In this document: positions 30,247 through 41,398 of the stretch, in pieces | Position numbering within the stretch: position 1 is the stretch's first letter | Layout: each line of letters opens with the position of its first letter | From: Zasmidium citrigriseum | Taxonomy: Eukaryota > Ascomycota > Dothideomycetes > Mycosphaerellales > Mycosphaerellaceae | DNA: 64,000 bases | Direction: 5' to 3' | NCBI GenBank assembly: GCA_002786025.1 | Contig: NHNW01000050.1 | Coordinates: 186,001 to 250,000, forward strand | Translations under genes and position numbers: made by a program | Notes under the pieces: generated by a model | What the model was told of the DNA's origin: nothing | What the model saw: the letters and a program-made list of their open reading frames with translations, nothing else | Databases searched by the model: none

Positions 30247-30467
30247 GAGGTGTCTGTCGGTATGGGAAGTTGTGCGACGGTCGCTTGGATCGGATCAAGC
30301 ACTCGTGGCGCTGACAGCTCTGTTAGTGACAGCTCACTTATGCGAACGTCCAAGCAACGGTGTTTCTGGTGGAGGCGCAGCTCGCAGCTGAGCTAGCAAC
30401 AGGTCTCGAGCGTTAATTTCGACGACTTCCGCTGCGTATCTCGGAAACAACATGCTTGCTTTCGACC

Positions 30468-32273
30468 ATGACAGGACCGTACGAGCCATTGCCCAGTCTC
30501 GAACACATTCGGATTCTAACCATCGAGTCCGGGGAAGAAGACACAATATTGCGCTGCCAGATTCGTACCGAAAGACTGGCAGATGTCTCCGGACGATACC
30601 TCGCTCTATCCTACGTATGGGGGCCACCAACAGATCAGGAAGCAATATATGTCAACGGGCAGACGATAGTGATCCCGTCGACTCTGGTGGTCCTGCTCAA
30701 GTCCTTTCGAAGGGTAGGTCGGGAAGGCAGGCCTCTGAACCTCTGGGCGGATTCGATCTGCATCAATCAGAATGACACGGCGGAGAGGTCCAGCCAGGTC
30801 GGCAAGATGAAAGAGATCTACGAGCAGGGTCATGATGTTTTGGCATGGCTGGGACCTGAAGCCGATGAGAGCGATCTCGCAGTTGATCTTATCGTCGCGT
30901 TGAACGAGTTCTTCTGGAAGTTTGCGAAAGTCACGAACGATGGCGTGGGACCGTTCCACATCCAGGAGCAAATTTGGCCTGCCATCAATCACGTGAAGAA
31001 TGCCATTGGAGATGACTTCCTGCCTCATATCTTCGCCTTCCTGTCGTTGTTACAACGACCATGGTGGCAAAGGACATGGATCATGCAAGAAGCCACCACA
31101 GACCACCACACGACTGTCTGCTGCGGACCGCGCATGACTTCATTGAACGCCATATTCATCGCATCCCTATACGTGAGGCACATGATGCAGCCTTTGATCG
31201 ACCCGCTCTTCCAGAACAGCTCCTGCAATCGTACTCTCGAAATACCAGCGCTTGCCACAGAGCACTTGGACCGAATCAATGAATTCAAACGTCCTCAGCT
31301 ACGCGGAGGCGAATATACGACTCATTTGGACCTTCTTACCATCGTCAGCTGGTTCCGATCAACGAAGGCCTCCGATCCGAGAGATAAGGTCTTCGCTCCT
31401 ATGGGTTTGTTTCGTCCCGGCCATCCAGGACGGTGCATCATGGACTACTCTATGTCTGTCAGCGAAGTGTACACACTCTTTGCTTCCACATGCATATTCG
31501 CAACGTCGCGCCCCAATCTGGACGTCTTGGGCTATACAACCGACGACGATACAGAAGACGCAGATTCTGAGCTTCCCTCATGGGTCCCCGACTGGCGGCA
31601 AGTCCTCCTCAGACAACCACTCCGCAAAGCCTTGACAATTTTATCCAAAGACGCCTCGGAAACTGTCTACGCTGCAGATGGCCCCTTGTGGCAACTCGAC
31701 GTCCCTGAACGGTTGCACGCGAAGCCCATCGGTCGAGAACTGCACGTTCGCGGCGTCTTCCTCGACAAGATCGACTCTCTAACGGACTCCGCTGCTCCGG
31801 CTAACGTCGAGCAGAAGATATATGAATGGTTTCGCTGGTTCACAAGCTCGAGCTCGGGAGGTTCCTACTTCACCGGCGAGACCAAGGAGCGGGTCTTCTT
31901 ACGCAGCATACTCGCAGACGCCTATGGTACCGCCGATTTCCAAACCGTCAGACGGGCACGATTCTCAGACCTCAACATCGACATCATTCGAAACGATCGT
32001 ATAGGCCTCTGTCAGGTCCACGAAGCCGTCATTGGTCGGAGGATGGCGATGACCACGCATGGGCTTCTGGCATTGGTTCCTGAAGAGGCCGAAGAGGGCG
32101 ATTTGATGTATGTCGTTTGTGGAGGACAGGTGCCTCTGCTTCTCAGGCGAGTCGGGGCGAGGTATGCGTATGTTGACGAGTGCTATGTACATGGGGTGAT
32201 GGATGGGGAGGTGCTTGATGTTTTGAAGTCTCTGGGGCGGGAGGTTGGGCTTGAGAGTATCACGATTGTGTGA
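30468..32273 (+). CDS. HET-domain protein
   Basis: Single-exon protein of about 601 residues with a heterokaryon-incompatibility (HET) domain, linked in fungi to nonself recognition and regulated cell death. The three HET blocks are visible in order: Y-L-A-L-S-Y-V-W-G near residue 45, L-W-A-D-S-I-C-I-N-Q-N-D near 100 with K-M-x-x-I-Y-E-Q-G-H-D-V-L-A-W-L-G, and P-W-W-Q-R-T-W-I-M-Q-E near 200. The long C-terminal half has the D-P-R-D-K-V-F-A motif and a P-S-W-V-P-D-W motif, both usual in this family. The ATG at 30468 was chosen. No accessory domain (NACHT, WD40) is attached. It is one of two HET genes in the window. Confidence 0.92.
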   Translation: MTGPYEPLPSLEHIRILTIESGEEDTILRCQIRTERLADVSGRYLALSYVWGPPTDQEAIYVNGQTIVIPSTLVVLLKSFRRVGREGRPLNLWADSICINQNDTAERSSQVGKMKEIYEQGHDVLAWLGPEADESDLAVDLIVALNEFFWKFAKVTNDGVGPFHIQEQIWPAINHVKNAIGDDFLPHIFAFLSLLQRPWWQRTWIMQEATTDHHTTVCCGPRMTSLNAIFIASLYVRHMMQPLIDPLFQNSSCNRTLEIPALATEHLDRINEFKRPQLRGGEYTTHLDLLTIVSWFRSTKASDPRDKVFAPMGLFRPGHPGRCIMDYSMSVSEVYTLFASTCIFATSRPNLDVLGYTTDDDTEDADSELPSWVPDWRQVLLRQPLRKALTILSKDASETVYAADGPLWQLDVPERLHAKPIGRELHVRGVFLDKIDSLTDSAAPANVEQKIYEWFRWFTSSSSGGSYFTGETKERVFLRSILADAYGTADFQTVRRARFSDLNIDIIRNDRIGLCQVHEAVIGRRMAMTTHGLLALVPEEAEEGDLMYVVCGGQVPLLLRRVGARYAYVDECYVHGVMDGEVLDVLKSLGREVGLESITIV

Positions 32274-32728: not shown

Positions 32729-34232
32729 ATGCCACCATCTCCGCATACAGGGTTTAAATGTCTATCCCAGACCCGCACATTGGCCACAGCGGCGACAACA
32801 TCTCGAGCACGACTTCGATTCGGCCCCACCGATGATCGAAACCTCGAACATTTCATACAGAAAGCACAGAAACGGGATCAGAGACAGGCATTGGCACGAC
32901 AAAAAGTGCTGCTCCAATTCATGCCCTCACGAGCGATTTTCCTGACGTTATCATTAGAGACTCGAAGAATCCGCTAAGACCGTACCGGCATTTTCGAGCA
33001 AGTTGAAGGAACACAACTATGGCCGACTTAGGAGAGGTAAGTCGATCAGTCCACGCTGGACTCTCTGGGATAGATCTGACGTTGCACTAGATACACCAAC
33101 GATATTACAGATCAATATCGGCAAGCTGTGCAATTTGAATTGTAGACATTGCCATGTTGAGTCCGGTCCCACGAAGATACATGAGAATATGAGTCTCGAA
33201 GTAAGCGAGATTAGGTGTTACGATCCAACGTTTCCTCAGCTCACAACCCTTAGACTGTAGAACGATGCATCGAGCTACTTCGAATGAGGTGCGTGAGGTA
33301 GACACAGGCACGATAGAGCCTTATCTGACCATTTCATCACAGTCCATCAATCGACACAGTCGACATTACCGGCGGAGCACCAGAGCTGAATGCTCATTTT
33401 CGAACTCTCGTGTCAAGGGTAAGTTGTCAATTGATTGCTACATTGGACAATGGTGCTGACGGCCGTGTGCCAGGCAAGATCAATGGGGAAGAAAGTCATC
33501 GACCGATGCAACTTGGCAGTCCTCTTCGAGAAGGGCCAGGAAGATCTACCAGCATTCCTCGCGGAACACAATGTTGATATCGTTGCCTCGCTACCTTGCT
33601 ACACCGAGGACAATACAGACAAGCAACGTGGCAAAAGAGTATTTGACGATAGCATTACAGCTCTCAGGCTACTCAACGCTGCAGGCTTCGGCCGCCAAAC
33701 CAATCCATCGCCCCGAAGACTAGACCTCGTCTACAACCCTCTCGGACCCTCTCTCCCTCCGCCACAGCATCAGCTTGAAGCAGACTACCGCCAACGCTTG
33801 GCTGAAGACCACCAAGTCACCTTCAACTCGCTCCTGGCCATTACGAACATGCCCATCAAGCGCTTCGCAGACGATCTGTATCAGACCGGCCAATATACAT
33901 CGTACATGGAAGTCTTGGCGAATGCATTTAATCCAGGCACGGTCCAAGGGCTGATGTGTCGGAATACGGTCAACGTGGCCTGGGATGGCAAGATATATGA
34001 TTGCGATTTCAACGCTGCGTTGGAGATGCAGGGTCGAAAGTTGGATGATGAAGACCACTTGTTGGATATTTGGGCTCTTGGTTGGTACTTTCGCCTCTCT
34101 TGATTGGATTCCGACTGACGGTATTTTGCAGATGATCTGTCCGAGTTGTATGGTGGTTCGATCCGCACGGGAAAGCATTGCTATGGCTGCACTGCTGGCT
34201 CCGGGTCGAGCTGCGGAGGGACGTTGGCTTGA
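32729..34232 (+). CDS. Radical SAM protein, ArsS/DUF3641 type
   Basis: Seven exons (32729-32905, 32958-33036, 33091-33200, 33254-33288, 33343-33418, 33474-34080, 34132-34232) give about 394 residues. C99-N-L-N-C103-R-H-C106 is the CX3CX2C motif holding the [4Fe-4S] cluster that cleaves S-adenosylmethionine. Next come T-V-D-I-T-G-G-A-P-E-L, the SAM-binding glycine motif, then D-I-V-A-S-L-P-C-Y and V-Y-N-P-L-G-P. The C-terminus is the DUF3641-like part with Q-G-L-M-C-R-N-T-x-N-V, D-G-K-I-Y-D-C-D-F-N, and H-C-Y-G-C-T-A-G-S-G-S-S-C-G-G, cysteines that probably bind an auxiliary cluster. Bacterial relatives (ArsS) are assigned to moving the adenosyl group onto arsenic in arsenosugar synthesis. The first 60 residues are basic with a likely mitochondrial presequence. 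The donor of intron 1 (GTGCTG) is non-consensus; all other joins are canonical. Confidence 0.85.
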
Positions 34233-34268
34233 TATTGCGGAGAACATCGCACAACTTCACAACACCTC

Positions 34269-35009
34269 TTATTTCGCATCCTCCACTTCCGGTGACATGG
34301 CTTCACTTAGGAACTTCATGGTTCTGGGATATTCCCGCGACTTCAACTTATGATCTCGCCACAGCCGATCCAAATCCGCTGGCTCATCGACATCAGGCAA
34401 TGCTTCTTCCAATTCACAATTAAGTCCAGCGTTATCCAGCGCCCTGACTTGCATATCACCGGTATGGTCGGTAGACCATTCAATCCCAGAGAAAAGCGCA
34501 TTCCCATTAGAGTTTAATGGCACCGTGAGCAGCACGTATCCGCCATCGCACGCGGGGATCATATGCGCTTTGCCACGAGCTTCTGACACTCTTCGCATCG
34601 AATCTTGTACCGAATCAGGAGTGAGGTCGAAGCAATCCATGCCGATAAAGGTCACTACTGGCAGTCCTGTCATATTTCCATTGTGCCTGTAACTTTTGTA
34701 CGCATACTCCAAAGCTGAGCTGAGCCTGTCGCCGAGGTCTCCAGATTCCGGCTGTGGAAATAGATCCCAGGCCTCATTCAGGCCTTCTCGAGATAGAAGG
34801 TCGTATAGGTCAGGTCTTGAGCTTGCGGGCGTGTAGAAGAGAATACGACGGCAAGAAGTGAGCTTGCAGAATAGGTGGAGAATGTCGATGAGGGCGGCTT
34901 CAGCGAACAAGGCAGCACCCTTCTCTCCAAGACGAGGGATCAGACGGGTCTTGCTACGGCCTGGTGTTGGAAATCGTGCGAGGAGGGCGAGGTGGTATGG
35001 TTTGTCCAT
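34269..35009 (-). CDS. DUF2064 glycosyltransferase (TIGR04282-type)
   Basis: Single-exon protein of about 246 residues with the nucleotidyl/glycosyltransferase fold of DUF2064. The start is the ATG at 35007-35009. The N-terminal A-L-L-A-R-F-P-T-P-G-R-S-K-T-R-L-I-P is the diagnostic motif of the family and resembles the nucleotide-sugar-binding loop of MobA-like enzymes. F-I-G-M-D-C-F-D-L-T and P-A-C-D-G-G-Y-V-L-L-T-V are the two other conserved blocks, with acidic residues likely to bind metal. The end D-V-D-E-P-A-D-L-D-R-L is also family-typical. It is convergent with the radical SAM gene, 36 nt between stops, and divergent from the GT2 gene. In bacteria this family is labelled arsenosugar biosynthesis-associated from its gene neighbourhood; the reaction is unproven. 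Confidence 0.85.
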   Translation of the reverse strand: MDKPYHLALLARFPTPGRSKTRLIPRLGEKGAALFAEAALIDILHLFCKLTSCRRILFYTPASSRPDLYDLLSREGLNEAWDLFPQPESGDLGDRLSSALEYAYKSYRHNGNMTGLPVVTFIGMDCFDLTPDSVQDSMRRVSEARGKAHMIPACDGGYVLLTVPLNSNGNALFSGIEWSTDHTGDMQVRALDNAGLNCELEEALPDVDEPADLDRLWRDHKLKSREYPRTMKFLSEAMSPEVEDAK

Positions 35010-35305
35010 TCTTGTGAGAACTGTGTGGCGAAGGACCTTCAAGCGAGGTACTGAAGCTCTTCTATCAGCATTCCTGCTAAAAGTATCGTGAACGAGGTAT
35101 TCCTGCTAACAAGCATTAATGAGGTTAGTTTTAGGGATGGAAGGTGAGCTGGCTTGAAGTGAGGTCGACCGGGCGGAAGAAAGTTCTTCCTGACGCCCAA
35201 CGTCATCGAGCCAGCCTCCCTCTTTCTGGATACCATTGACAGTTCTCATCCATTTGATCATCACGAACATATACTCCATCATTCCGCGTAGCTAGCCGGT
35301 CTGAT
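35010..35305. promoter_or_regulatory. Bidirectional promoter of the two glycosyltransferases
   Basis: Only 296 nt separate the start codons of the DUF2064 gene (-) and the GT2 gene (+). Such a short divergent spacer suggests joint control. No specific operator can be named. Confidence 0.5.
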
Positions 35306-36229
35306 ATGGCCTCCTGGACAGAGCTGCTTCTCGGAATTTCAATCATTGTGGCCGTCTGTTATGCTGCTCAAGCATTTCTGGCCAGCGGCTCTCAATATGC
35401 CTCGAAATCAAATTCAAAGAAGAAACCTCCTCTTGTCAGATCCATTGTCGTCGTAATTCCAACGCTGAATGAGACTGTAGCTCTACCGAGTACCATCAGC
35501 CGCCTCTTCTCGAATGCGGCACGAACGGAACGAGATGACAAGCCCGATACCGCCTCGTCAATCAAGGTGATTGTTGTCGATGCCTCGAGGGATGTATCGC
35601 CGACAGGGGCCTGCCTCAGTAACCTTGCCGCTGCCTACAGATCGTGCATTGACTTGGTGCAATACAGCGGACAGCCTTCCCGCGGCCGACAACTGAACTT
35701 TGGGGCTGATCACGCCGCAAGAACAGTCCCAGATGCATCAATCTTGGTCTTTCTGCATGCAGATACCTACCTGCCTCGAGCGTGGGATGACTCCATCTTT
35801 GATCTTCTCTCACGCCCGGAGCGGAACCCGATGCTTGGATGCTTCAGACTCTCGCTTCCGTCACCCATCTCCCTCAAGCTACGCATCATGCTCTGGTTCG
35901 CCAACAGGCGAGCGACTATTGGCAAACTTCCTTATGGCGATCAATGCTACTTCCTCACTCGAGCCGACTTCGAGCAGCTTGGAAAGTTCCCAGAGGTGCC
36001 TATAATGGAAGATGTGGGACTCCTTCGAAGAATAGCTCAACACGGCGGCAGCGTGGAAGTCTTGGATGCTTCTGTCGAGACGAGTAAGCGTCGCTGGGAG
36101 AAGAAAGGTGTGTGGTGGAATACACTGTTGAATCAGTTCTTGATCACGGCTTGGTTGTGTGGGACGCCACCGGAGACGATATATCGATGGTACTATGGAT
36201 CCCCTCGCCAGAGCGCACTGCAAAAATGA
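35306..36229 (+). CDS. Family 2 glycosyltransferase (TIGR04283-type)
   Basis: Single-exon protein of about 307 residues. Residues about 7-27 are a hydrophobic helix (L-L-L-G-I-S-I-I-V-A-V) that should anchor it in a membrane, which bacterial relatives generally lack. The GT2 core follows: V-V-I-P-T-L-N-E-T, V-I-V-V-D-A-S, G-R-G-R-Q-L-N-F-G-A-like (here S-R-G-R-Q-L-N-F-G-A), F-L-H-A-D-T as the DxD-type metal motif, G-D-Q-C-Y-F-L and P-I-M-E-D-V-G-L-L-R-R with the catalytic E-D. These are the marks of the TIGR04283 subgroup found beside ArsS-type radical SAM and DUF2064 genes in bacteria. Together the three genes could make a glycosylated metabolite, arsenical or other. Confidence 0.88.
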   Translation: MASWTELLLGISIIVAVCYAAQAFLASGSQYASKSNSKKKPPLVRSIVVVIPTLNETVALPSTISRLFSNAARTERDDKPDTASSIKVIVVDASRDVSPTGACLSNLAAAYRSCIDLVQYSGQPSRGRQLNFGADHAARTVPDASILVFLHADTYLPRAWDDSIFDLLSRPERNPMLGCFRLSLPSPISLKLRIMLWFANRRATIGKLPYGDQCYFLTRADFEQLGKFPEVPIMEDVGLLRRIAQHGGSVEVLDASVETSKRRWEKKGVWWNTLLNQFLITAWLCGTPPETIYRWYYGSPRQSALQK

Positions 36230-37725: not shown

Positions 37726-39408
37726 CTACAGCCTCAACCCAAGAGGACCAGCCATGACATCCAAAGCACCAAAAAGCTCATTGTCATGATACTTCCTAGC
37801 AACCAGCTGCAGAGCGATAGGAGCATTCTCATAGTCAATCTCCTCCCACAATTTCCTGACATGAGCATCCTGCTCATTCCACGGCTCACCATCAGCATAC
37901 TTCTCGACTCCCTTGGCCAACGCCTTGATAGGCGTTGGAAAGACGACGCCTGGATAGTCGACAAAATTCCACAGCGCAGTATAGTTCCAGTAGAAAGAGG
38001 TGTCATGAGCTGGAGCTGGGCCAACATACATCGGACACAAGACAAAGTCGACGTCCTGGGCGTTCCAGTCCTCGGCAAAGGCGCAGCGGTAGGCGTCCCG
38101 AGTGACACGGTCGGCGAGGATCTGGGCTGCTGTTTTGTTAGTGCCGACGGCGTCTTTGATGATGTGCTCTGTCAATGCATGAATGGGTTCACCAGTGGCA
38201 GCCGCCGCGGCCTTGCATGCTTCGCCGCCATCTGGCCAGTACATCTTGCGGATGTTTGAGATGGCATCAGCTACCTTGTAAGGCTTGTACGGCTTCAGCT
38301 CGAGCAGGCAGGATGTGGAGAGGCGCTTCTGAGCCCATTCCATGGCCCGCAAGACTGGAGGCTGTGGTTGAATTACACTATCGTTGAGCATGACTCCAAT
38401 CTTCAGTGGCTTCTGAACACTGCATTTAAGCTGTGTCTTCAAGCCCGTCCAGGGGATCGGCACCAGGCGCGGATCTTCGAGAAACGGCTTCTCGTCCAGG
38501 ATGCTCCTCATGAAGAGATCCATGTCTCGCAGCGTGCCACAGAGAGGACCAGTCGAGCAGAGAATGTTGAGCTCGGCAGCGAAACCACCAGCAATGAATC
38601 CTTGCATCGGCAGTGTGTATGTCGTGGGCTTGAATCCATAAATACCGCATTTGCCAGCTGGGCCTCGAATGCTGCCTCCTATGTCTGTGCCGATGCCGAG
38701 CACAGATCCTCGAAGGGCGATGAGCGCAGATTCTCCTCCCGAAGAGCCGCCGGGCGAGAGATCAATCGAGTACGGATTGAGCGTTCTGCCAAGGTACCCA
38801 TCGGTCTCCAAGTGCATGATGGCCTGCGGCTGTGCTGTCTTGCAGTGGAACACAGCGCCCAGCTTGCGCAGGATGGCAATCATCTGGCAGTCTTGCTTGT
38901 CCAGGACGATTTGGCTCACGAAGCCACAGTCAGAGTAAGTGCCGGCCAGTGGGATGTGCTGCTTCACTGAGATGGGCACGCCGTGCAGAGGACCTACTGT
39001 CTTTCCTGTCCGTTCGAGATGCTCATCGAGCTTCTTGGCCTGCTCCAGTGCCATGTCTGGAAGCCATTGAGTAAGGCAGCAGGAGATCTGGTCGCAAATG
39101 ACTGCTCTCTTGAGGAAAGCCTGAGTAACGGCGACGGCGGTAAGCTTGCGAGTCGCAATCGTATCAGCGAGGGCGACAGCATCGTAGTCCTCGGTGATAG
39201 AGAGCTCTTCTGCAGTCAGGATACCACACTCTCGAGGAATGGATGTGATATTCTTTGGAGGATTGTCGATGTAGTGCTGAGGCACGTAGTACCCTTCTGG
39301 AACCTTGGCAATGAAGGCGTCGTACAGCTTCTGCCGTCTTGCCTCGAAGGCCTCCGTGCCTTTGGGGACAGGCAGTCGCTGAAGGAGCGGAAATGGGCGG
39401 GAGGACAT
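37726..39408 (-). CDS. Amidase (acetamidase/FAAH-like)
   Basis: Single-exon amidase-signature enzyme of about 560 residues that hydrolyses a carboxamide to acid and ammonia or amine. The Ser-cisSer-Lys triad is visible: Lys149 in P-I-S-V-K-Q-H, the cis-serine in S-P-G-G-S-S-G-G-E (222/223), and nucleophile Ser246 in G-T-D-I-G-G-S-I-R-G-P-A. The overall layout, including the N-terminal L-T-A-V-A-V-T-Q-A-F-L-K-R-A helix and the C-terminal W-N-F-V-D-Y-P-G-V-V-F-P-T motif, matches fungal acetamidase (amdS-like) and fatty-acid amidase proteins. The ATG at 39406-39408 was chosen. It is divergent from a Zn2Cys6 regulator that may control it, as commonly seen for amide-utilisation genes. Confidence 0.93.
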   Translation of the reverse strand: MSSRPFPLLQRLPVPKGTEAFEARRQKLYDAFIAKVPEGYYVPQHYIDNPPKNITSIPRECGILTAEELSITEDYDAVALADTIATRKLTAVAVTQAFLKRAVICDQISCCLTQWLPDMALEQAKKLDEHLERTGKTVGPLHGVPISVKQHIPLAGTYSDCGFVSQIVLDKQDCQMIAILRKLGAVFHCKTAQPQAIMHLETDGYLGRTLNPYSIDLSPGGSSGGESALIALRGSVLGIGTDIGGSIRGPAGKCGIYGFKPTTYTLPMQGFIAGGFAAELNILCSTGPLCGTLRDMDLFMRSILDEKPFLEDPRLVPIPWTGLKTQLKCSVQKPLKIGVMLNDSVIQPQPPVLRAMEWAQKRLSTSCLLELKPYKPYKVADAISNIRKMYWPDGGEACKAAAAATGEPIHALTEHIIKDAVGTNKTAAQILADRVTRDAYRCAFAEDWNAQDVDFVLCPMYVGPAPAHDTSFYWNYTALWNFVDYPGVVFPTPIKALAKGVEKYADGEPWNEQDAHVRKLWEEIDYENAPIALQLVARKYHDNELFGALDVMAGPLGLRL

Positions 39409-39943
39409 GATGAAGGAACGCGAGGAACTGTGAAGACTGGCTGGGGAAGAGGTCACATACTCACTCTTGTATCTCAGAAGAGTCAGACAGTCCCTTTCGC
39501 CCGTTCAATATCATACTGCAAATGCTTCGAGTGAGGAGACGAAGGCCAAGACAGCTTCACTGCGCAATTGATCCTCACTGGCGCGGACGTGGACAAGCTC
39601 GAGGCGTGGAAGCGATCAAGCTGTCTTTAGCACTTCAGAATATTGATGATCGATGTCCTTTCGAATGGTCCAAGGGAATCCCACCTCGAGCATCAGGACA
39701 AGACGGGGCCCCTGAGCGCGCAATTGCTTGTGATTGGTGCGATTCGCTAGCGTGAAGTCTAAAAGGCTGCCTCCTCAACTTCAGGCGCCTCCTCTTTGAT
39801 TACCTCCATGCATCTTATCTTGCGACGACAATGTCTCCAAATCCTATCACTCGAGGCAGCCCCGCAATTCCAACCAGAAGCGATGATGCGCACATTCGAC
39901 TGGATGACACTCGCCAGCCTCGCCAAGCAGCACGACCACAGGA
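39409..39943. promoter_or_regulatory. Divergent upstream region, amidase and Zn2Cys6 genes
   Basis: 535 nt between the two start codons should carry both promoters and any binding site through which the regulator acts on the amidase. A short open frame inside may be an untranslated leader exon of the regulator. No inverted CGG triplet pair was positively assigned. Confidence 0.4.
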
Positions 39944-41398
39944 ATGCAGAAGTCTCATGCAGTCCTACGTACCAAGACAGGCTGTCTGACATGCCGGCAA
40001 CGGCGCAAGAAGTGTGATGAATCCCGCCCGGTATGCCGGAATTGCAACACTTCGCACCGATCTTGCACGTGGCCCACGCAAAATGACCTTTTCGATGGAC
40101 GCCATGGTCAACGCAGAAGGCCCAGCGCAGCAGACGATCCCGAACAAAATTGCCAGCGAGAGCTGCCCGACCTTGCTACCGAAGCCAATATCTCAAGCCA
40201 AGTCATCGAAGTTTCCCTTGAGACCGCGGTCGGCCTTCACTTCACGAACACCTACTATGCTCTCCTCATCAATCCAGACAGCCATCCGGACTTCTACAAC
40301 GACTGGATCAACGACATCAACGTCTACATGATAGTCGACCGTGGTGTTCGATACTCAGTACTGGCGAATGCAGCATCCAACCTCTTTCTAGCTGGAGAGG
40401 CGCCCCAAATGCAAGAAGTTGCTCTTTCATATTACTCAAGATCGTTGCGAGGTCTCAACCAAACGGTCGCTCGAACACCATCTGGACGGCGTGAGTATCG
40501 AAACTCCATTCTCACCAATATCATGATGCTCTACCTCCATGGCTGCATGGGACATGGGACGTACACCGACATACCACACCACGTCAGTGCAGCAATCCGC
40601 ATAATCCTAACCGAATATCTCGAAAGCGACTTGTCAGTCTCGCTACGTCGACCCTACGATCGACTCGCTTTAGAAAGCGTGATTTATCAGATTTTCCTCG
40701 TTCGGATGGGTCTATGGTCAGAAGCACCCGACGAGGGCCTTGATTTCCATTTTGATCCCCACTTCTGGTTGCAATGTGAGGCTTTGCTGACCCGGACGAT
40801 TTTGTTTCCAGACCAGTCAAACACTCGCAACAGCCCGGTGCTTGGAGTGCCCTTTGCGTTGTACAAGATCATGCTCATGATCAAAGTCCTGTGGGGGATC
40901 GATCGAGCCTCGAAAGAATTCCACCGATGTCTTCGACGACTCCAACGAGAGCTGCAGCCTTGGCAAGAACACTTTCGTAATACTTCCGACGAAGATCAGG
41001 GTTCTGTAACTCTCTCCAACTCCTTGGAATCTGCGAGTCAGTCCGAGACTTTCTCCAAGGATGCGACTACTCTAATGGCACTGGGGGCTTCCCTCCTGTC
41101 CGTCCATCTGTCAACACCAGGAAGTGGCACCATCCCATCTGCGACAACTGATGAGAGCTGGCAGATTTCACGGATCATAACGGTCTTGGAGCGTCGATAT
41201 GGAGACCGAAAGTGGGCTGCATGTCATCTGGGCAACTATCCTCTGTATGTTGTCGGACATTTCATGCGCACTCCAGAAGAGATTGATCTCGTCCGAAGTG
41301 AATTGAAGCTTCGTTCGAAAGAGATGGCTTGGTCTCAGGTCCATCGATTCTGGAACAGTCTGGAGGAGATCTGGCGTGAGAGAAGTCAATGTTTGTAG
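39944..41398 (+). CDS. Zn2Cys6 transcription factor
   Basis: Single-exon regulator of about 484 residues. The zinc cluster is near the N-terminus: C-L-T-C-R-Q-R-R-K-K-C-D-E-S-R-P-V-C-R-N-C-N-T-S-H-R-S-C, with the canonical spacing CX2CX6CX6CX2CX6C. A middle region of amphipathic helices (T-A-V-G-L-H-F-T-N-T-Y-Y, A-N-A-A-S-N-L-F-L-A-G, L-T-N-I-M-M-L-Y-L-H-G) corresponds to the Fungal_trans_2 domain. Divergent placement to the amidase and the following FAD-dependent oxidoreductase suggests a pathway-specific activator of a small nitrogen-catabolic group (inference). A small upstream exon cannot be excluded. Confidence 0.9.
   Translation: MQKSHAVLRTKTGCLTCRQRRKKCDESRPVCRNCNTSHRSCTWPTQNDLFDGRHGQRRRPSAADDPEQNCQRELPDLATEANISSQVIEVSLETAVGLHFTNTYYALLINPDSHPDFYNDWINDINVYMIVDRGVRYSVLANAASNLFLAGEAPQMQEVALSYYSRSLRGLNQTVARTPSGRREYRNSILTNIMMLYLHGCMGHGTYTDIPHHVSAAIRIILTEYLESDLSVSLRRPYDRLALESVIYQIFLVRMGLWSEAPDEGLDFHFDPHFWLQCEALLTRTILFPDQSNTRNSPVLGVPFALYKIMLMIKVLWGIDRASKEFHRCLRRLQRELQPWQEHFRNTSDEDQGSVTLSNSLESASQSETFSKDATTLMALGASLLSVHLSTPGSGTIPSATTDESWQISRIITVLERRYGDRKWAACHLGNYPLYVVGHFMRTPEEIDLVRSELKLRSKEMAWSQVHRFWNSLEEIWRERSQCL

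Follow-up and report, generated by a model that had tools for sequence, protein, structure and literature searches.

Do fungi carry a version of their own of the gene set that is linked to arsenosugars in bacteria, and would its product contain arsenic? The question is raised by three adjacent genes of Zasmidium citrigriseum (Mycosphaerellaceae), which lie at positions 32,729 to 36,229 of the window, that is, of the whole 64,000-nucleotide stretch analyzed here (contig NHNW01000050.1, positions 186,001 to 250,000). They encode an ArsS-like radical S-adenosylmethionine (SAM) protein, a DUF2064 protein and a family 2 glycosyltransferase (GT2). The locus is real, and its linked, inherited genes are the fungal form of a cassette known from bacteria. 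A probability of about 0.6 is assigned to the reading that together they provide the committed part of a pathway by which the fungus would make an arsenosugar (or arsenosugar lipid). Families, linkage, phylogeny, modeled folds and co-occurrence were tested directly, and from there we infer the reaction chemistry and the order of the steps.

The three genes and their families

The ArsS-like gene (32729..34232, forward strand) runs from an ATG at 32729 to a stop at 34232 and is modeled as seven exons (32729-32905, 32958-33036, 33091-33200, 33254-33288, 33343-33418, 33474-34080 and 34132-34232), giving a protein of 394 residues with a presequence-like N-terminus. All six introns are of the GT-AG type and 51-55 nt long, and in five of them a CTGAC box lies close to the 3′ end. 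The protein scores 414.7 bits against the equivalog family TIGR04167 (cut-off 300, E 2e-124, profile positions 2-303 of 303), and matches PF12345, the DUF3641 domain, at 172.8 bits and PF04055 (Radical_SAM) at 41.3 bits. The radical SAM motif CX3CX2C is present as C99, C103 and C106, and so is the C-terminal cysteine set of DUF3641, sought as MCR, DCDFN, HCxGCTAG and GSSC/U and found as C321, C336, H377-C378, C381 and C389; HCYGC and SSCGG are among the motifs. By family, as judged from profile and motifs, the gene is a true ArsS, in line with the marks of the ArsS/DUF3641 family noted in the first-pass annotation. Intron 2 (33037-33090, 54 nt) keeps the reading frame and contains no stop; if it were retained, 18 residues would be inserted immediately ahead of the radical SAM core and the frame would stay intact.

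The DUF2064 gene (34269..35009, reverse strand; a single exon, 246 residues) meets ArsS at a convergent junction of 36 nt (34233..34268), and is separated from the GT2 gene (35306..36229, forward strand; a single exon, 307 residues) by a divergent intergenic region of 296 nt (35010..35305), possibly a shared promoter. The splicing and reading-frame check reproduced to the nucleotide the motifs and six introns first described for ArsS, as well as both gaps. The assignment of the two partner proteins to the TIGR04282 and TIGR04283 types stands in part. TIGR04282 is the best family for the DUF2064 protein, over the full profile (1-189), at 116.4 bits, below the cut-off of 134; TIGR04283 is the only family listed for the GT2 protein at E ≤ 0.01, at 170.1 bits over profile positions 2-221 of 221, below the cut-off of 182. 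The broader cut-offs are passed by both (PF09837, 60.6 bits against 25.8; PF00535, 24.2 bits against 23.3). Since best match and full coverage go together with missed NCBI cut-offs, the two proteins are best called eukaryotic relatives, not members, of these families. In a profile search of the 44,446,153-base genome, PF12345, TIGR04282 and TIGR04283 were found at one place each, all within 3.5 kb; with these counts taken as lower bounds, none of the three families turned up a second time in the 44.4 Mb. Under random placement, such co-location would have a chance of roughly 2.5e-8, a rough estimate from (7 kb/44.4 Mb)^2.

Structure models were predicted for the DUF2064 and GT2 proteins and compared by Foldseek. 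The DUF2064 model comes closest in fold to nucleotidylyltransferases of the CofC/FbiD type, at 14-18% identity, and its closest functional folds include 3-phosphoglycerate guanylyltransferase and Rv2983 with bound phosphoenolpyruvate (PEP). CofC, FbiD and 3-phosphoglycerate guanylyltransferase are enzymes of the F420 pathway, from which the fungal protein differs in that low identity, in its score against the CofC family TIGR03552 (16.7 bits, cut-off 105) and in its gene partners, ArsS and GT2. By that score DUF2064 is not a CofC, although it may work like one: its predicted fold is that of a nucleotidylyltransferase, and it is closer to such enzymes than to the glycosyltransferase after which NCBI names it. 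The first-pass description of DUF2064 as a TIGR04282-type transferase is corrected on this point, and the label given by NCBI, ‘TIGR04282 family arsenosugar biosynthesis glycosyltransferase’, is predicted to be wrong about the reaction. The GT2 model resembles enzymes with nucleoside diphosphate (NDP)-sugar donors, and has an N-terminal hydrophobic helix at residues 4-31, where model confidence is about 70-79.

Bacterial context and the case for arsenic

Eighty bacterial ArsS loci were surveyed, only 50 of them with at least 4 kb on both sides; neighbor families were first clustered blindly, and clusters of apparently antisense frames were then removed on visual inspection. GT2 occurs in 24 loci (one match, that of L021, is weak at 35 bits), DUF2064 in 24 and both in 20, and neither was found in the stretch around ArsS in 52. 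DUF2064-GT2 fusion proteins also occur. An ArsM-like methyltransferase is present in 28 loci, mostly directly adjacent to ArsS. Other frequent neighbors are a MerA-like flavin adenine dinucleotide-dependent (FAD) oxidoreductase (31 loci) and a VTT membrane protein (30 loci), which are often fused to each other. A count of 37 loci for the phosphorylase MTAP was rejected, because antisense reading frames had been drawn into the second-round profile; the count retained is given below.

Co-occurrence was counted in 249 bacterial genomes, related and therefore not independent, from the phylum of G020, the Plasticicumulans genome that holds locus L064. The limits were the curated cut-off for ArsS, E ≤ 1e-40 for GT2 and E ≤ 1e-25 for both DUF2064 and ArsM-like proteins, the E values being our own choice to keep out generic relatives. 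ArsS passes in 77 genomes. GT2 is found in 75 of these as against 27 of the 172 without ArsS, DUF2064 in 74 as against 31, and ArsM-like proteins in 64 as against 14, while DUF2064 accompanies GT2 in 101 of 102 genomes and occurs in only 4 of the 147 that lack it. Thirty of the 80 loci led to 29 ArsS genomes, and in 19 of these an ArsM-like match exceeds 100 bits.

The fungal genome itself holds an ArsM on another contig (C61), whose spliced model of 306 residues scores 269.1 bits against NF008823 (cut-off 263) and to which, in a sequence comparison, the closest proteins of solved structure are arsenite methyltransferases. Its C-terminal stretch is rich in cysteine, with repeated NGCS and GCC motifs (locus L003). 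Other arsM-like places in the genome, at 69 bits or less, were taken as generic methyltransferases. An MTAP gene is found on C138 (290.3 bits, cut-off 274.85), and an ACR3-like gene on C113 matches in four pieces, the best at 245.1 bits (cut-off 282.8). None of these three is linked to the cluster. The ArsM that the first-pass annotation proposed to look for is present, on another contig. Arsenic is the likely substrate.

Compared with the bacterial ArsS/ArsM arsenosugar system (TIGR04167, NF008823, NF038099, TIGR04282 and TIGR04283), the fungal genes share the radical SAM family and, as best matches, the same partner families, and ArsM and MTAP are likewise present in the genome. The bacterial system is an operon, whereas in the fungus a spliced ArsS stands in a convergent and divergent array, with ArsM and MTAP elsewhere. 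Further differences are the presequence-like N-terminus of the fungal ArsS, the hydrophobic N-terminus of the window GT2 and most of its nearest relatives, and partner proteins that score below the bacterial cut-offs. The arsinothricin cluster arsQML of Burkholderia gladioli likewise combines a radical SAM enzyme with an ArsM-type methyltransferase in making an organoarsenical, according to parts of two articles (PMC8552651, PMC12159101), in the second of which the radical SAM enzyme is described as transferring a 3-amino-3-carboxypropyl radical. In contrast, the cluster studied here includes genes for DUF2064 and GT2, and its radical SAM gene belongs to TIGR04167.

Related arrangements are also seen in bacterial genomes without ArsS. 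In one (G131), DUF2064, GT2 (TIGR04283), ArsM-like and another radical SAM gene stand in a row (L100:4958-8474), and in another (G036) the set consists of MTAP, another radical SAM, ArsM-like, DUF2064 and a GT2 that best matches TIGR04182 (L102:4619-9915). The two radical SAM genes best match the Rv1681 family, at 92.8 and 121.6 bits, respectively, far under its cut-off of 380. In these two loci the same scheme seems to have been assembled around another radical SAM enzyme, which gives the module independent support; they may be a parallel cassette making another organoarsenical. Radical SAM genes with the same best match (L099:9444-10511, 84.1 bits; L101:3989-5038, 95.6 bits) occur in two more genomes without ArsS, with GT2 and DUF2064 within about 6 kb.

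A proposed route and its rivals

Where the proteins would work can be estimated from their N-termini. In all 15 fungal and eukaryote-like ArsS compared (the latter named for where they fall in the tree and, in most cases, for an N-terminal extension), CX3CX2C starts at residue 88 or later, as against residues 34-49 in four bacterial ArsS; P0007, P0014 and three fragmentary models were left out of this comparison. The first 30 residues carry a net charge of +3 or more in 13 of the 15, all but the Aspergillus tanneri model and P0083; the N-terminus of P0012 is basic but poor in serine and threonine. These features suggest a mitochondrial presequence. In GT2, a hydrophobic N-terminal stretch (19-residue mean of at least 1.7) is present in the window protein and in P0121-P0123, P0126-P0129 and P0131; P0130 and P0136 are intermediate at 1.3-1.4, and by the same measure P0132, P0133, P0135 and two rows on the bacterial side lack such a stretch. 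A hydrophobic N-terminus is also missing from the Lecanosticta model P0125. The window GT2 is probably membrane-anchored.

In the proposed arsenosugar route, the unlinked ArsM would methylate trivalent arsenic, As(III), to its dimethylated form, DMAs(III). ArsS, probably mitochondrial, would then add the 5′-deoxyadenosyl radical from SAM to yield 5′-deoxy-5′-dimethylarsinoyl-adenosine; that ArsS adenosylates arsenic is taken from a later article, which cites the first study (PMC12159101). An MTAP-type enzyme, housekeeping in the fungus and clustered in some bacteria, would phosphorolyse this arsenoadenosine to arsenoribose-1-phosphate, a step proposed because MTAP-family genes lie inside bacterial clusters (L086, L073 and L102) and because a 5′-arsinoyl adenosine resembles methylthioadenosine. 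DUF2064, acting like the CofC/FbiD nucleotidylyltransferases, would convert arsenoribose-1-phosphate into NDP-arsenoribose, from which the probably membrane-anchored GT2 would move arsenoribose to glycerol, phosphoglycerol or a lipid acceptor.

Several observations weigh against this reading. As to the substrate, no ArsM-like gene was found in 13 of the 77 ArsS genomes at E ≤ 1e-25, nor above 100 bits in 10 of the 29, including the isolate Cupriavidus laharis; GT2 and DUF2064 persist without ArsS in 27 of the 249 genomes, 11 of them with ArsM; and the fungal ArsM lies apart from the cluster. Synechococcus elongatus, in the control set, matches PF12345, TIGR04282 and TIGR04283 with no ArsM at E ≤ 1e-25, and in macrofungi arsenosugars are described as rarely reported and mostly at trace level in the part of the source available (PMC5849658). 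As to the steps, both partner proteins miss their family cut-offs; the best Foldseek match of DUF2064, 3cgx, is titled a putative nucleotide-diphospho-sugar transferase, and the 50 Foldseek rows for DUF2064 include one glycosyltransferase (2d0j, rank 45). An MTAP-family phosphorylase lies near ArsS in only 10 of the 80 loci, L081 included, where it is an over-long reading frame on the other strand, and with a mitochondrial ArsS and a cytosolic MTAP the product would have to cross a membrane.

The missing ArsM-like genes, the persistence of GT2 with DUF2064 and the location of the fungal ArsM on another contig, together with the fact that the arsenic label stems from bacterial neighborhoods and one studied enzyme, would fit a cassette that makes an adenosylated, glycosylated metabolite from another heteroatom, for example from a thiol, a selenol or some other soft nucleophile. 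We consider this unlikely, though it deserves serious attention, given that ArsM-like proteins are so much commoner in genomes with ArsS (64 of 77, against 14 of 172), that they mostly adjoin ArsS directly where they occur in its loci (28 of 80), and that the fungal ArsM exceeds its curated cut-off.

It is also conceivable that ArsS acts on arsenic in another order of steps or with other substrates, in which case DUF2064 would, in the manner of 3-phosphoglycerate guanylyltransferase, activate a phospho-acid or glycerol-phosphate acceptor and a nucleosidase would remove the adenine. The modeled proximity of DUF2064 to 3-phosphoglycerate guanylyltransferase and to PEP-bound Rv2983 points in this direction, as does the scarcity of MTAP near ArsS; a nucleosidase step, unlike the phosphorylase step proposed here, has been put forward in a review, as a proposal only, for an arsenolipid of the alga Dunaliella (PMC10456119). 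However, the phosphorylase found nearby is of the MTAP family, the normal substrate of which, by its family name, is a 5′-modified adenosine, and the GT2 model matches enzymes with NDP-sugar donors, such that this alternative appears improbable.

Descent in fungi and what the locus offers

The descent of ArsS was followed in a careful tree of 45 rows and a quick tree of 67, and that of GT2 and DUF2064 in quick trees with Shimodaira-Hasegawa-like likelihood-ratio (SH-aLRT) support. Ten ArsS rows were counted as fungal: the window, eight named entries and P0007, the last because it groups with Exobasidium. In the 45-row tree, a 99/96 branch sets these ten, from Ascomycota and Basidiomycota, apart from the others; the eight ascomycete rows are united at 100/97, with the window ArsS beside that of Lecanosticta (100/95), and the twenty fungal and eukaryote-like rows are together at 96/94. 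The adjoining bacterial branch (90/88) holds P0022, L017, L019, L026, L039 and L073. ArsM-like, GT2 and DUF2064 genes accompany ArsS in L019, L026 and L073, with MTAP in addition in L026 and L073; L039 shows ArsM-like only, and in L017 no ArsM-like, GT2, DUF2064 or MTAP gene was found. The quick trees place the named fungi in a 17-row clade for GT2 (SH-aLRT 99) and a 53-row clade for DUF2064 (97). Within these clades, thinly sampled as they are, basidiomycete-side and ascomycete rows separate as inheritance would give. The ArsS tree favors one origin for all rows counted as fungal.

Relatives were drawn from the best 120 of 7999 scored ArsS matches and the best 120 of 1713 DUF2064 matches. Among the ArsS matches listed are those of Lithohypha, Lipomyces, Coccidioides, Exobasidium, Lecanosticta, Aspergillus tanneri, Aspergillus sp. 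HF37, Elsinoe and Corallochytrium, a holozoan, the name of which is our reading of a EukProt tag. Linkage was read from database records, by equal ‘longest contig’ size or neighboring locus tags, and not from contig sequence. On this basis, ArsS is linked to GT2 in Lecanosticta (193224), in Exobasidium (tags 005576/005574) and on one further contig (12350), and to DUF2064 in Lipomyces (105116) and Aspergillus sp. HF37 (tags 05988/05987), while DUF2064 and GT2 are linked on contigs of 54432, 12962, 31958, 17366, 6928 and 4187 bases; the proteins encoded by these six contigs and by that of 12350 bases fall in the fungal clades. Only pairs were seen, and no contig with all three genes, among the relatives listed. 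At least 9 of the 16 database GT2 proteins of the fungal clade have a linked partner among the matches listed, a floor, because only the best 120 ArsS and DUF2064 matches were considered, so that the lack of a listed partner in Coccidioides or Lithohypha means little. Best profile matches to other subfamilies, or a lack of synteny in related fungi, had been named at the outset as grounds for refuting an inherited eukaryotic pathway, and neither was found: the best matches are the families first named, and the pairs in Lecanosticta, Exobasidium, Lipomyces and Aspergillus sp. HF37, together with the single origin of ArsS and the fungal clades of its partners, support that claim.

Fungal ArsS is easy to overlook because database models miss motif regions. 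Among the nine named eukaryotic entries, the CX3CX2C region is missing from three models and the C-terminal cysteine motif from one more (P0005 from Lecanosticta, P0009 from Elsinoe, P0018 from Aspergillus HF37 and P0006 from Aspergillus tanneri are the four), probably as gene-model errors in an intron-rich gene.

The host of the cluster is a fungus, as seen from flanking genes with HET, amidase and fungal Zn2Cys6/Fungal_trans_2 domains and from a nearest named ArsS in Lecanosticta. An origin by recent gene transfer from bacteria or by contamination, the genes then having no settled role in the fungus, for which a mainly bacterial ArsS family and a bacterial ArsS about 57% identical might speak, is rejected as very improbable in view of the six spliceosomal introns, the 99/96 branch, the fungal GT2 and DUF2064 clades, the linkage in other fungi and the fungal flanking genes. 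By domain matches, these neighbors are a HET-domain gene (30456-32273), an amidase gene (37726-39456) and a Zn2Cys6 transcription factor gene (39944-41398); nothing was seen that ties them to the cluster.

Beyond the committed part, a complete eukaryotic pathway to an arsenosugar or arsenosugar lipid can be suggested tentatively, at somewhat less than an even chance for the whole, in which ArsM, the housekeeping MTAP and this cluster would suffice. Mitochondrial ArsS would make the arsenoadenosine and MTAP convert it to arsenoribose-1-phosphate; DUF2064 would be an arsenoribose-1-phosphate nucleotidylyltransferase and not a glycosyltransferase, and a membrane GT2 would load a glycerolipid. Such a pathway would date back, by inheritance, at least to the ancestor shared by Ascomycota and Basidiomycota, and it could supply material for fungal arsenobetaine, the route to which is described as under investigation in the part of one article that was accessible (PMC13314834). 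In the excerpts available from open-access literature on arsenosugars, radical SAM enzymes, fungi and lichens, no description of an ArsS gene in fungi was found. Here, a compact, spliced fungal locus offers three deletable genes, with one defined prediction for each.

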